DNA from: Actinomycetota bacterium
GTDB taxonomy: Bacteria; Actinomycetota; Thermoleophilia; Gaiellales; Gaiellaceae
NCBI GenBank assembly: GCA_013697275.1
Contig: JACCXC010000019.1
Location: 1 to 45,679, forward strand
Direction of reading: 5' to 3'
Length of the DNA stretch: 45,679 bases
Under the pieces are notes generated by a model that saw nothing but the letters and a program-made list of their open reading frames with translations, did not search any database and was not told the origin of the DNA. Shown here piece after piece: positions 15,444 to 22,071 of the stretch. The first letter of the stretch is position 1; each line of letters begins with the position of its first letter. A program made the translations under genes and the position numbers.

Positions 15444-18400
15444 TTAGGGCGTCACCACCGGGCAGCCGACGCCGGTGCAGACGATCCGGCCCTGAATCGC
15501 AGGGCTGATCGTCCCCTGCGCCGTGATGTAGTCCGCGACGACCTGATCCATGATCTCCCGGGTCGTGAAGCGACCCTGGAAGTTCGGGTACGAGTCGCCG
15601 CCGCTCAGCGTGAAGTCGTTCGAGGCCAGGGTGTACGTCGAGCCGGCCGTCAGGTCGACTGCGGGCCCGGTACACGTCCCGTTCGCGGCCTGGCGCACCA
15701 CCGACACCACCCTGCTCCCGGCCGGGAGCGTGATGTTGTACGTGACGCAGAGGCCGGACACCTGCGGGAACCGTCCGTCGGCGGCAGGCATCCGCGAGAC
15801 GCCGTTCTCGAGCATCGTCTTCAGCTCCGCCCCGTTGATCGAGACCGTCGAGGCGACGTTCCCGAACGGGAGCACCTCCAGCACCTTGCCGCGCGTGATC
15901 GGATAGGGCGGAGGCGTGAAGGGCGGGCAGAAGTCCGTCGAGCTGTCCGTCGTCGGACAGGTCAGGTCGGCGCGGAGGCCGCCCGAGTTCGTGAGCGCGA
16001 AGTCGGTCCCGTAGGTCGCGCGCAGGGCGTCGGCGACGACGTTCCCTTCGAGCGACTCGCAGGTTCGGCCCGCGGACTGGCCGCAGGCATCCGCCCGCGG
16101 GATGCGGCGGGTCGAATTCCCGATCACGACGCTGAGCTGGCCGGTGAGCTGCGCGTTCAGCGAGTCGATCTGCGCCTTGAGCTCCGGATCCGGGCCCACG
16201 CCGATGTTCCACGGTCGGTGCCAGTCCGCCGTCTTGTAGATCACGCGGTTGTTCAGCGTGTTGATGACCAGGCGGACGCGTGTGAACCGGATGCCCTTGC
16301 TCCGGTTCTCGGTCAGAAGGACGCCGTTCGGCCTCCGATCGAGGGCTTGGAAGTCGGTGTGGTCACCGATGACCACGTTGACGTTCTTCGCGGCGTCCGC
16401 GAGCGCGACGAGCGGCCCTTGCGGGTCGTTCAGCGTGCCCGTGGTCGCCCCCAGGTGTCCGAACGCGACGATCGCGTCGACGCCCTTGGCCTTCAGCCTC
16501 CTCGCGTGCGCGTTGACGGCATCGGTTGCGCTGGTGACCTGGAAAGGCCCGAACGCGTCCGGCCGCACGAGCGTTGGCGCGTCCTCATTGGTGAAGCCGA
16601 TGAAGGCGACGCGGACGCGGGTCTTACCGCTCCCGAACGTGAACGTCTTGGCCGGAGCCCACTCCGGCGGGGTCTGGCCGCCCTGCGTGACGTTGGCCGA
16701 GAGATACCGGAACTTCGCCAGCGGAACGAGCTGCTCGCGGAAGTACTGTTGCCCGCGGTCGAAGTTGTGGTTGCCGAGGCCGTCGAGGTTGAACCCCATT
16801 CTGTTCATCGCCTCGATCGTCGGCTTGTCGCCGAAGAACGAGGAAATCGGGGGCGTCGCGCCGACGGCGTCGCCGCCCGTCAGCGTGACGTGCCCAGCCC
16901 GAGCCTCGCCGCGGTACGCGTCGAACCACGGCTTCAGGAACGCAGCGCCCCCGATGTCGTATACCTGGTTGATCGTCCCCGTGCCGGTCAAGTTGTCCGC
17001 GGCCTCGGTGAGCGGCGTCAGCTGGCCGTGGTAGTCGCTGATGTTCAGGATCGTGATCTCCTTGAGGTCACGCGGGCCCGCGGCCCGGCCGGTCAGCTGG
17101 CCGCCTCCGCCGGGCGCAGCCGTTCCGCCGCCCGGCGGCGGCTTCGGCGGCGCAGGCGTCGGCAGGAGGTCGAGGAGGATCCGCCCACGCGCATTCTGCG
17201 GGCCCGGGATCCGGAGGAGGAAAGCGACCGTCGGAGCGACGTCGATCGCCCGGACGTTGCGAAGCGACTTCTTCTTCGCGATCGCCGGCCCACCCGCGAT
17301 GAACGTTCCGTGCATGTTGACGTTCCGGGCGATGTTCACAAGGTTCGGGGCGTACCCGTGCTGGCCGAAGAAGTGGGAGAAGGCAATCCTCTTCCCCGGC
17401 TCGGCCGCGTCGAACTGGTATGGAGGCCGCGCGATCACGACGACGTCGCCCGAGCGCGAAGGATGGAGCGCGTCGGTTCCGTCGACGTTCCTGAGCTCTT
17501 CCTTCATGAGCACGCGGTCGATCACGGGCCGGCCCGGCGTGGCCGGGTCGGTCAGGTTCATGAACGCCGCCTTGACCTGCTGGCGGACGTCCTCGTACTG
17601 CGTGGCGCTGTAGCCCGCCGGGCGGCCTGAGATCGCCGGGTCACGCCCGTCCCGGCGCAGGTAGATCTGCGCCGTCCCGCCGGCCCAGCACGCCTTGACG
17701 CGCTGCGAGGTGTCGGCCGCGGCGACGCGACAGTTCGACAGCGACTCGGCCGAGGCGAGGCCGGCGTCCTGCAGCACCTTGCCCGCGTTGATCGCCATCC
17801 ACTGCGGAGCGAACCCGTGGTCCGAGCTCACGAACGTCGTCGCGTTCTTGACGAGCTGACGGGCCAGCTTGAGCGTTGAGTCGGCTTCGTGGTAGGCGGA
17901 GCGGATGAAGCCCTCGCGGGCGGGCACCCGGTTGTCCTTGGTGCCGTCCGCGTTCAGGTCGTCGTAGTACGGGTTCGGACGCCCGTCGATGTCCGTCTTC
18001 GTGACGAGGCCCATGAACTGGTGGGAGAACTCGTCCGTGACGGGGTTCCCGACGAGGAAGAGGTCGGGCTTCACGCCCAGGTCGTTGACGATATAGCGCA
18101 TGTAGGCCCAGTGCGCGTCGGCCCACATGAGGCCCTGCTGAACGTAGGTGTCCTCGTCCACGATCTCGGCCTCGAGCGGCGCGAAGTCGGCCGCGGTCGA
18201 GGTCGGGAAGCGTGAGGCGAGCTGCTCCTCGAAGTCCGAGGCGCACGTCGGCGTAGCCGTGCAGCCCGTGTAGGTCGCGTTCACGCGGGCGATCGACGTG
18301 TAGTACAGGCGGAACTGCGAGCCGTCGGCCGAGAGGTCGATCAGCTTGACGTAGAAGCCCGCTGTCTGTCCTGCCCGCGGCCCGGTGAGAGCGAGCTTGA

Positions 18401-19259
18401 TCTCGTCCCAGTCACCCCTGGCGAGGTTGGAGACGGCCTGCGCGCCGTTCTTACCGGACTCGGCCGGAACGACGATCGTCCGGTCGTAGTTCGTCTGCCC
18501 GTCGTTGGTCGAGTCGTAGATGTAGAGGTCGTAGAAGCGGTCGACGTTCGCCGTCGCGGGGAAGGCGGTGTTCGCCACCTTGAGCCGCTGCTCCCGGGCG
18601 GGGCTGTACGAGGTCGGTACGCCGGTCCAGCCCGTCGCGGTGGTGAGCGTGACCCGTTGGTACGTGACGCCGAACTGGTTCGCGAGGCCGGGCTGGCCCG
18701 GCAGGTCGTAGCTCGTGATGACTCCGCGGTCCGAGAAGAACGACCGGAAGTCCACCACCGGGCCGGCAAGCGCCGGGCTGATGTTCCGCGAGCCGACCCA
18801 CTCGACCGAGACGACCGTCTTGCCGGCGCGCTCGGCCGCCTGCTGGATCGTGTCCGCCTGGAGGATCCCCGTCGTGGCGAAGCTCGTGCGGTTCGTGAAG
18901 AGGTCGCCCGTCCGGTGGAACGTGTTGTTCGTCGAGCCGTGCTCGCTTGGCCACGTCCCCGTGGCGAGCGTGTACCAGCCGACGCCCGTGTTCGGCGGGA
19001 AGCCCTGCTTCAGCCCGTTGACACCCTTGACGCCGTCGCGCATGAGCGCGCGCATGGTCGGCATGGCGCCCGAGGCCGCATAGCGGTCTACGAGATCGGG
19101 CCGCATCCCGTCCGCGGCGAAGAGGATGACCTTCGAGGCCTTCGGCACGTCACGTGTCGAAGGTCTTTGCTTGGCGCCGGCCGCTCCGAGGCCGACGGCG
19201 AGCGGGAAGAGAGCGATGAGCGAGGCCAGAGCGGCCGGGAAGAGGCGACGAGTACGCAT
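15444..19259 (-). CDS. Secreted phosphodiesterase/nucleotide pyrophosphatase fused to 5'-nucleotidase
   Basis: 1271 residues from ATG 19259 (GGAGGG upstream), with a signal peptide ([20 protein letters not shown]). Residues about 40-700 form an alkaline-phosphatase-superfamily NPP-like domain: metal Asp50 in FAADGMRPD, nucleophile Thr91 in [27 protein letters not shown] and a final FGQHGYAP. A Pro/Gly linker ([13 protein letters not shown], near residue 710) leads to a 5'-nucleotidase/UshA-like half: [31 protein letters not shown], then the C-terminal domain with [10 protein letters not shown] and SGGDSYPNF. Such an enzyme could split extracellular nucleotides or diesters to nucleoside plus phosphate in one chain. 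A PhoP-type box upstream supports a phosphate-scavenging role. The usual GHTH motif of the second half reads GDHTD. Confidence 0.9.
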
Positions 19260-19293
19260 GCGCAGCAGACCCTCCAGAGACGTTGGGGCTTGG

Positions 19294-19322
19294 ACGCTAC
19301 AACCGGGCCGGGGCCGGGTCAA
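19294..19322 (-). promoter_or_regulatory. Promoter of the phosphodiesterase/5'-nucleotidase gene
   Basis: Minus strand TTGACC (19317-19322) and TAGCGT (19294-19299) with exactly 17 nt between. Predicted leader of about 28 nt contains the GGAGGG ribosome-binding site. The -35 hexamer is 5 nt from the last PhoP-type repeat. Confidence 0.7.
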
Positions 19323-19327
19323 TGTGA

Positions 19328-19371
19328 ACATGGTGTAACCGTCGTGACCACGGAGTGACGGGGTGGTGAAC
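19328..19371 (-). promoter_or_regulatory. PHO box: four 11-nt direct repeats (PhoP-type operator)
   Basis: Read on the minus strand toward the gene, four consecutive 11-nt units are GTTCACCACCC (19361-19371), CGTCACTCCGT (19350-19360), GGTCACGACGG (19339-19349) and TTACACCATGT (19328-19338). The TCAC core recurs every 11 nt in the first three and ACAC in the fourth, the layout of actinobacterial PhoP sites (direct repeat units with a GTTCACC-like head). The array abuts the -35 box, as expected for activation under phosphate limitation. Confidence 0.65.
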
Positions 19372-19383
19372 TTGGTCGCACGG

Positions 19384-19412
19384 TTGACGAATGGCATAGG
19401 CGGGCGTACGCT
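19384..19412 (+). promoter_or_regulatory. Promoter of gamma-glutamyltransferase gene
   Basis: TTGACG (19384-19389), 17-nt spacer, TACGCT (19407-19412), then 8 nt to GTG 19421. The transcript would have a leader of about two nucleotides. It lies 13 bp from the PhoP-type repeats that serve the divergent gene. Confidence 0.65.
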
Positions 19413-19420
19413 CGTGGCGC

Positions 19421-21454
19421 GTGCAACGCCTGTGGGGGGTCCTTGTCGTTCCGGCGCTGGTCGCGGCCTTCGCGGCGCCAGCCGCCGCCCAGGTTCCAGC
19501 GCCGGCGAAGCAGCCTGTCGCCTCCGGGAAGGGCGGCGCCGCGGCGACGGTCGACGCGCTCGGCACCCAGGCCGCGATGAACGTCCTCCGGAGCGGCGGA
19601 AACGCGATCGACGCCGCGGTGGCAGCCGCCGCGACACTAGGCGTCACCGAGCCGTACTCGTGTGGCATCGGCGGCGGCGGCTTCATGGTCATCTACCGCG
19701 CGGCCGACCGGAAGCTTTTCACGATCGACGGGCGCGAGGAGTCGCCCGCCTCGTTCCAGCCGAACAGCTTCATCAATCCGATGACCGGCAACCCGATCCC
19801 GTTCGCCGAGGGCCAGACGAGCGGCCTCGGCGTCGGCGTCCCGGGGACGCTTCGGACGTGGCAGGAAGCGCTCCGGCGCTTCGGCACCAAGCCCCTTGCC
19901 TCGCTCATGCAGCACGGGATTCGGGTCGCAGACGAGGGTTTCGTCGTCGATCAGACCTACCGCGACCAGACGGAGGCGAACCGAGACCGCTTCGACGACT
20001 TCACGACGACACGCGACGTCTTCCTGACCCCGGGAACCTTCCAGTCGCCGGCAGTAGGCTCGGTTGCCCGGAATCCACAGATGGCCGAGACGTATCGCGA
20101 GATCGCCTCGCGCGGCGTCGGCGCCTTCTACTCTGGCACGATCGCGGACGCGATCGTGCAGAGCGTCCAGAACCCGCCCGTCGTGCCCGGAACGACCCGA
20201 AACGTCCGGCCGGGGCTGATGACGCAGGCCGACCTGGCCGCCTACAGCGCGCTCTTCCGCAACCCGGCCTCGTCGAACTACCGGGGTTTGCGCCACGTCG
20301 GCATGGGGCCGCCGTCGAGCGGGGCCTCGACCGTCGGCGAGGCGCTCAACATCCTCGAGGGCTACCCCCTCTCGACGCTGACGCGCCCGCAGGGTCTCCA
20401 CTACTTCCTCGAAGCCTCGGCGTTCTCGTTCGCCGACCGCGGCCAGTTCCTGGGCGATCCGGATCATGTGAACGTGCCGCTCGCCGGGCTTCTCTCGGAC
20501 AGCTTCGCGGCCGAGCGGCGCGCGCTGATCGGGCCAACCGCAGCGGCGAAGCCCGTCCCGCCGGGTGATCCGACCGACAACGAGGGGCCGTCGACCACGC
20601 ATCTGACCGTCGCCGACAGGTGGGGCAACGTCGTGAGTTACACGTTCACGATCGAGTCGACGGGCGGCAGCGGGATCGTCGCCGGCGACAAGGGCTTCCT
20701 CCTGAACAACGAGCTGACGGACTTCAACTTCACGGCGGGCACGGCGAACTCGCCGGCCGGCGACAAGCGGCCGCGCTCCTCGATGGCCCCGACGATCATG
20801 CTCCGCGACGGCCGGCCCGAGATCGCTGTCGGCTCGCCGGGCGGCTCGACGATCATCACGACCGTCCTTCAGGTCCTCGTCGAGCACCTCGACTTCGGCC
20901 GCTCGCTTCCGGACGCCATCGCGACGCCCCGCGCGTCGCAACGCAATACCGCGTCCGTGTCTGCCGAGCCCGCCTTCATCGCCTCGCCGGACGCGGCCGC
21001 TCTGACGGCGCTCGGCCACCGGTTCACGAACGCGGGCGAGATCGGTGCAGCAACCGGGATCGACTTCCAGCAGGGCGGCGTCATGCAGGCAGTCGCCGAG
21101 CCGGTCCGCCGCGGCGGCGGGCATGCCGAGGCGATCGCGAACCGGGGCCCCGCCCCGAGCTGCCAGATCGAGATCGGGACGTTCCAGAGGCTGCAGGCGG
21201 GCCGCCGGCTCACTGTCGTCGTGTCCTCTTCGCGCCTCCTGGGAACTCCGGCCGAGGGCCGAAGAGCCACTGCGCGCGGCGCAGGCGCCAGCGCCTCGAC
21301 GACGCTCAAGCAGAACGGGCGAGGCCGCCTCATCCTGCGCCCCACGCGAGCGGGGACGCTCACCGTTCGCGTTGGGTCAGTCCGGTGTGCCGCGCTCAGG
21401 ATCGTCGGTGCCCCAGCTGGCGTCGGCTCCGGCCTGACCGGCCGATCCCTCTAG
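19421..21454 (+). CDS. ggt: Gamma-glutamyltransferase, secreted
   Basis: Cleaves gamma-glutamyl bonds (glutathione and conjugates) outside the membrane as a self-processed Ntn-hydrolase. 677 residues from GTG 19421 with a signal peptide ([20 protein letters not shown]). Family blocks: [44 protein letters not shown], and the processing site [15 protein letters not shown] in which Thr392 is the expected nucleophile. The C-terminal half shows [20 protein letters not shown] and [10 protein letters not shown], then [16 protein letters not shown]. About 110 extra residues after the catalytic core (from [11 protein letters not shown]) look like a small beta-rich appended domain. No ribosome-binding site, in line with the nearly leaderless promoter. 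Confidence 0.95.
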
Positions 21455-21540: not shown

Positions 21541-22071
21541 CTAGGCCGTCCGCTGGACGAATGCTCTCTCGACCTTGCGAGCGAAGGAGCGCGGATCGAG
21601 AGCCGGGAACCGGAAGAGCTCCGGCTCGATCTGCGCGAAGAGGGCGAGCGCCCGCTCCGGTTCGACGAGGCCGCGCTCGACCATCGCGTGCACGTCCTCG
21701 AGGTCCTGCCTGTGCCCTCGCTCGACCTTCGCGAGCGCCTGGGCGTAGGGGTCGAAGTGGTAGAAGCTGATCCGGCCCTCTCGCACGACGAAGATCGCCC
21801 GCTCCTCGGACCCGGGCGGAAGCGGGATGAAATGCGCGGGCGAGACCAGCTCGACGTTGACCTCCAGCTCGTCCTTCAGGCGTGCGAGCGCCCGGAGCAC
21901 CGCGTCGGTTTCCGGGACGAAGGTCACGTCGACGTCGATCGTGCTCTCGCGCCAGCCGAGCAGGACCGCCGTGGCGCCCCCGGTCAGGTAGGCGGCGACG
22001 TCGCTCTCCGCCGCCGCACCCAGCGCCCGCAGGAAGCGGCGGATGCGCGCGGCGTCGGCTAGCTCGCGCAC
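21541..22071 (-). CDS. Nucleotidyltransferase-like protein (DUF6036/MNT type)
   Basis: 176 residues. The N-terminal part has AYLTGGATAVLLGWRESTIDVDVTF: Gly31-Gly32 followed by Asp46 and Asp48, the GG...DxD layout of minimal nucleotidyltransferases of the DUF6036/AbiEii-like kind. The rest (YHFDPYAQALAKVERGHRQDL, then DVHAMVERGLVEPERALALF) fits the region in this family that follows the fold, with the K...R..D..D arrangement. It begins 13 bp inside the preceding 88-residue gene, at the end of the uvrB operon. Some relatives are toxin-antitoxin components; here no HEPN partner is visible, so a housekeeping or regulatory role is equally possible. Confidence 0.7.
   Translation of the reverse strand: MRELADAARIRRFLRALGAAAESDVAAYLTGGATAVLLGWRESTIDVDVTFVPETDAVLRALARLKDELEVNVELVSPAHFIPLPPGSEERAIFVVREGRISFYHFDPYAQALAKVERGHRQDLEDVHAMVERGLVEPERALALFAQIEPELFRFPALDPRSFARKVERAFVQRTA

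Follow-up and report, generated by a model that had tools for sequence, protein, structure and literature searches.

The window, the whole 45,679-nt stretch of Gaiellaceae DNA analysed here, carries on its minus strand a phosphodiesterase/5'-nucleotidase gene (15444–19259) with a product of 1271 aa. By Pfam, a type I phosphodiesterase domain (PF01663) at the N-terminus is joined to PF02872, the C-terminal domain of 5'-nucleotidases, and NCBIfam and PDB sequence matches assign the first half of the product to the nucleotide pyrophosphatases/phosphodiesterases (NPP) and the second to the UshA-type 5'-nucleotidases. These matches agree with the first-pass annotation, which had described the gene behind the putative operator as a fusion of the two enzymes. 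The fusion is predicted to be secreted due to a signal-like sequence at its N-terminus. The divergent gene, ggt (19421–21454, plus strand), encodes a gamma-glutamyltransferase (PF01019; TIGR00066 above cut-off). A minus-strand ORF of 176 aa (21541–22071) that has no NCBIfam match is located between ggt and uvrB.

The start codon of the phosphodiesterase/5'-nucleotidase gene (ATG at 19259) is preceded by a ribosome-binding site, GGAGGG (19270–19275), and by promoter-like hexamers on the same strand, TTGACC at −35 (19317–19322) and, 17 nt away, TAGCGT at −10 (19294–19299). A generic sigma-70 scan returned no hexamers above the tool threshold, because TAGCGT shares only three of six positions with TATAAT, and the empty scan is not counted as evidence against a promoter. 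The pattern TAGNNT is found 38–52 nt before the start of the window gene and of all eight orthologues inspected. The −35 hexamer is near consensus, and higher basal expression is therefore expected, to which an upstream-bound PhoP would add activation; the promoter may thus have substantial basal activity.

Upstream of this promoter, the minus strand from 19371 to 19328 contains four contiguous 11-nt units in one phase: GTTCACCACCC (19361–19371), CGTCACTCCGT (19350–19360), GGTCACGACGG (19339–19349) and TTACACCATGT (19328–19338). The first three carry TCAC and the last ACAC at the core, and 5 nt (TCACA) separate unit 4 from TTGACC; re-reading the sequence gave the same units, cores and distance to the TTGACC-17-TAGCGT promoter as had been reported. 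Unit 1 contains an exact GTTCACC and matches the family consensus best, while units 2 and 3, recognised in the sequence and by the matrix, contain CGTCACT and GGTCACG. The weaker unit 4, identified by the four-unit score and shuffles, contains TTACACC, and its ACACC is also the third unit at phoP of two relatives (G006 and G012). A further GTTCACA, absent from the first list of units, lies 9 nt beyond the fourth core, off the 11-nt phase and directly before TTGACC. Its TTCACA (19323–19328) occupies the place of the conserved TTTCAG in pstS promoters and, judged from this position, is a possible fifth, half-conserved unit.

An actinobacterial-type PHO box comprises at least two direct 11-nt units with a GTTCACC-like core, positioned upstream of or at the −35 element, and all of these features are present at the window site. 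The PHO box of S. coelicolor consists of GTTCACC in 11-nt direct repeat units (PMC4415409, PMC6283541). The window site resembles the boxes of S. coelicolor and S. filipinensis in its 11-nt direct repeats, in the GTTCACC core of unit 1 and in having units of graded quality, and the distance from the last unit to the −35 element is 5 nt compared with 4 nt at S. filipinensis phoU. It differs from the Streptomyces boxes in that units 2–4 are GTCAC or TACACC variants, the host belongs to another family and the window box is a prediction from sequence.

The 2.19-Mb assembly contains three exact copies of TCAC-N7-TCAC-N7-TCAC, one each upstream of phoP, of pstS and of the window gene, and the reversed pattern, used as a control, has no occurrence in the same genome. 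The phoP and pstS copies are on contig C116. Its genes encode a response regulator like PhoB (phoP, 882–1598), a PhoR-like kinase in divergent orientation and, after these, pstS, pstC and pstA; the first copy precedes the regulator gene and the second precedes pstS. A cognate PhoP/PhoR pair is therefore encoded beside pstSCA. The best NCBIfam matches of the regulator and kinase are PhoB and PhoR, yet both fall below the equivalog cut-offs, and MtrA and RegX3 are among the best solved-structure matches. The divergent arrangement of phoP and phoR with the PHO box between them (positions 882–2685 of C116, L071) is unlike the phoRP order of Streptomyces. By eye, no obvious membrane segment is seen in this kinase, which reads as a protein of 338 aa.

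The window box and the pstS and phoP boxes of the genome and family fit the same matrix, are oriented towards the gene and are spaced from the −10 element in steps of approximately 11 nt. The first TTCACC lies 60 nt from the −10 element at pstS, 62 nt at phoP and 71 nt at the window gene; the last distance is longer by about one unit, which matches the extra fourth unit. The window box scores lower than the pstS and phoP boxes and has four units instead of three. The pstS promoters also contain a conserved CCCACG at the −35 place and ACACT at −10, whereas the window gene has the near-consensus TTGACC. The spacing at the window site had been taken as known actinobacterial PHO-box architecture.

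A 34-nt matrix was built from 48 pstS and phoP upstream regions of family members, with the window genome left out; phased TTCACC-like units are present in all 29 pstS upstream regions of relatives and in most of the phoP regions examined. The matrix scan, which had been proposed as a check on the operator, returned 38.7 bits for phoP, 36.5 bits for pstS and 25.6 bits for the window site (19371–19338). The second-best score in the 45.7-kb window, 6.0 bits, comes from this box too, shifted by one unit. No match reached 18 bits in 4 Mb of simulated Markov sequence, and the highest score in real DNA of relatives, over 538,048 positions, was 8.1 bits. The four-unit score at the window box is 28.7, which none of 1000 shuffles equalled (p<0.001). 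The sequence-only profile gives a more conservative figure when run genome-wide, with phoP at the top (E 1.9e-5), followed by pstS (3.7e-4) and, in third place, the window site (19371–19341) at 0.032; by this figure the site alone is a moderate match, which owes its weight to where it lies and to its conservation. Across the family, 73 of 103 genomes have a profile match at E ≤0.01, and many of those checked lie at pstS or phoP. The next ranks in the window genome (E 0.17, then 0.37) are probable noise. The first of them, C209:2220–2246, scores 16.5 bits by the matrix and lies upstream of a GTPase-like gene; it is probably due to chance.

Conservation was assessed in nine orthologues with readable upstream DNA. 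PHO-type units are present in four of them (G011, G040, G025 and G008) at −95 to −116, compared with −111 for the window box. In the G011 orthologue the box scores 23.6 bits and stands 71 nt from −10, just as in the window gene, and the G040 orthologue has an 11.5-bit box (region p 1.4e-4) with a spacing of 48 nt; both are built of TTTACC/TTAACT units. The G025 and G008 orthologues each have two matching units (shuffle p 0.005 and 0.002, respectively). No recognisable box lies upstream of the remaining five (G002, G012, G034, G038 and G043). The first-pass annotation had held that a lack of repeats in orthologous upstream regions would speak against the operator; such conservation exists in four of the nine orthologues and is missing from five. 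A search by eye for exact TCAC repeats had suggested no conservation, a result that was dropped when the matrix found the G011 and G040 boxes. Homologues from Egibacteraceae, Caldilineaceae and Humibacillus (L109–L112) have no box by the Gaiellaceae-family matrix, which is not counted against conservation because their PhoP may read another consensus. In the protein tree the box-bearing orthologues do not form one clade, which fits repeated loss or gain of the box, so that among relatives this gene gains or loses a PHO-type control site.

These comparisons bear on whether the repeats might have arisen by chance in GC-rich intergenic DNA and regulate nothing. The genome-wide E of 0.032 and the absence of the box from about half of the orthologues would suit such an origin, but the site lies directly upstream of the promoter-like element of a phosphatase gene, shares its register with the G011 orthologue and carries an exact triple pattern common only to phoP, pstS and itself, which makes chance very unlikely. 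It is also very unlikely that the units serve another OmpR-type or 11-nt-period regulator, such as GlnR or an AfsR-like protein, instead of PhoP. Tandem recognition at 11 nt is common to OmpR-family proteins, the genome encodes further PhoP-like regulators (five matches in all) and some relatives carry a distinct TCACAGAAGYG repeat, but the window site fits the matrix trained on phoP and pstS and the function of the gene suits phosphate. The GlnR operator consensus is a pair of half-sites, GTnAC-n6-GAAAC, and reading both strands of 19317–19371 found no GAAAC. The TCACAGAAGYG-like 11-nt repeat occurs at several places in several relatives (L084, L103; G035, G004); it may serve a different regulator as operator, or it may be a repeat element.

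The window site is most probably a multi-unit PHO box through which PhoP would activate the phosphodiesterase/5'-nucleotidase gene when phosphate is scarce, a reading to which we assign a probability of roughly 0.88 from the sequence evidence. The repeat design equals that of the phoP and pstS control sites of the same genome, so the gene is very probably PhoP-activated under phosphate scarcity. The PhoP operator proposed in the first-pass annotation gains support from the shared motif at these two sites, from a matrix trained outside this genome, from the third rank genome-wide and from partial conservation among orthologues. Against PhoP control stand the five boxless orthologues, the deviation of units 2–4 from TTCACC and an E value of only 0.032, together with the near-consensus −35 element and the basal activity that it may bring. 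Under phosphate scarcity, PhoP, a PhoB/RegX3-type regulator whose gene lies next to pstSCA, would in its phosphorylated form bind the TTCACC-like 11-nt units head to tail. Positioned just upstream of the −35 element, it would bring RNA polymerase to the TTGACC-17-TAGCGT promoter and increase transcription of the gene. The enzyme, if exported, would free phosphate from nucleotides and diesters, and the Pst transporter would take this phosphate up.

Pho regulons often contain 5'-nucleotidases of the UshA type as scavengers (PMC4415409), and SCO4152 of Streptomyces coelicolor is a secreted 5'-nucleotidase under Pho control (PMC7866108). A nucleotidase gene preceded by a PHO box of the actinobacterial type is therefore of a kind already known. 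Pho control of a secreted 5'-nucleotidase is common to SCO4152 and, as a prediction, to the window gene; the window enzyme differs in carrying a type I phosphodiesterase at its N-terminus, and the likeness is one of kind. The window member and the family-wide PHO-box matrix are new. The site places an uncharacterised phosphodiesterase/5'-nucleotidase fusion within the predicted phosphate-starvation regulon of a lineage known from assemblies.

The box also lies close to the divergent ggt gene. The promoter-like elements of ggt, TTGACG (19384–19389) and TACGCT (19407–19412) with a 17-nt spacer on the plus strand, are evident in the sequence and fall under the generic threshold, and the −35 element starts 13 nt from the box. 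If TACGCT is the −10 element, the ggt mRNA would start near the GTG at 19421 and be nearly leaderless; a comparably short distance to the start codon appears at several pstS and phoP promoters of the family. It had been suggested that ggt might share the control. In that case PhoP would act on ggt too, as activator or repressor, through these units. The 13-nt distance stood, and a bidirectional PhoP-controlled region has a precedent in phoRP-phoU of Streptomyces filipinensis (PMC6283541). The box units, however, face the phosphodiesterase/5'-nucleotidase gene and point away from ggt, as units point to the gene at pstS and phoP. A full-locus matrix scan of the ggt loci of relatives found no site of at least 10 bits, and orthologues of the phosphodiesterase/5'-nucleotidase gene have the box without an adjacent ggt. 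In the literature covered, ggt, phosphate starvation and PhoP occur together in a single paper, a general genome description. The suggestion of shared control thus found no support, and a common operator appears unlikely.

In three relatives (G040, G002 and G012), the phosphodiesterase/5'-nucleotidase gene directly follows uvrB in the upstream DNA, while in the window a small ORF and ggt sit between the two genes, and ggt therefore probably arrived later. That two divergent secreted enzymes then passed under the control of a single PHO box is quite doubtful; if this happened, phosphate scavenging would be coupled to glutamate release from gamma-glutamyl compounds. To our knowledge, no link between a Pho regulon and such glutamate release has been described.

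Beyond this locus, the family-wide PHO-box matrix covers pstS, phoP, second copies of pstS and probably ppk, and can be used for regulon prediction. In one relative, a 28.9-bit PHO box (G002:C9; L101, minus strand, position 301) is located upstream of what appears by eye to be the start of a polyphosphate kinase gene, with more matches nearby. In another, a 24.3-bit PHO-type site (G011:C149; L094, position 743) is found beside a pst cluster, before a gene whose product by eye resembles a low-molecular-weight phosphatase/arsenate reductase.
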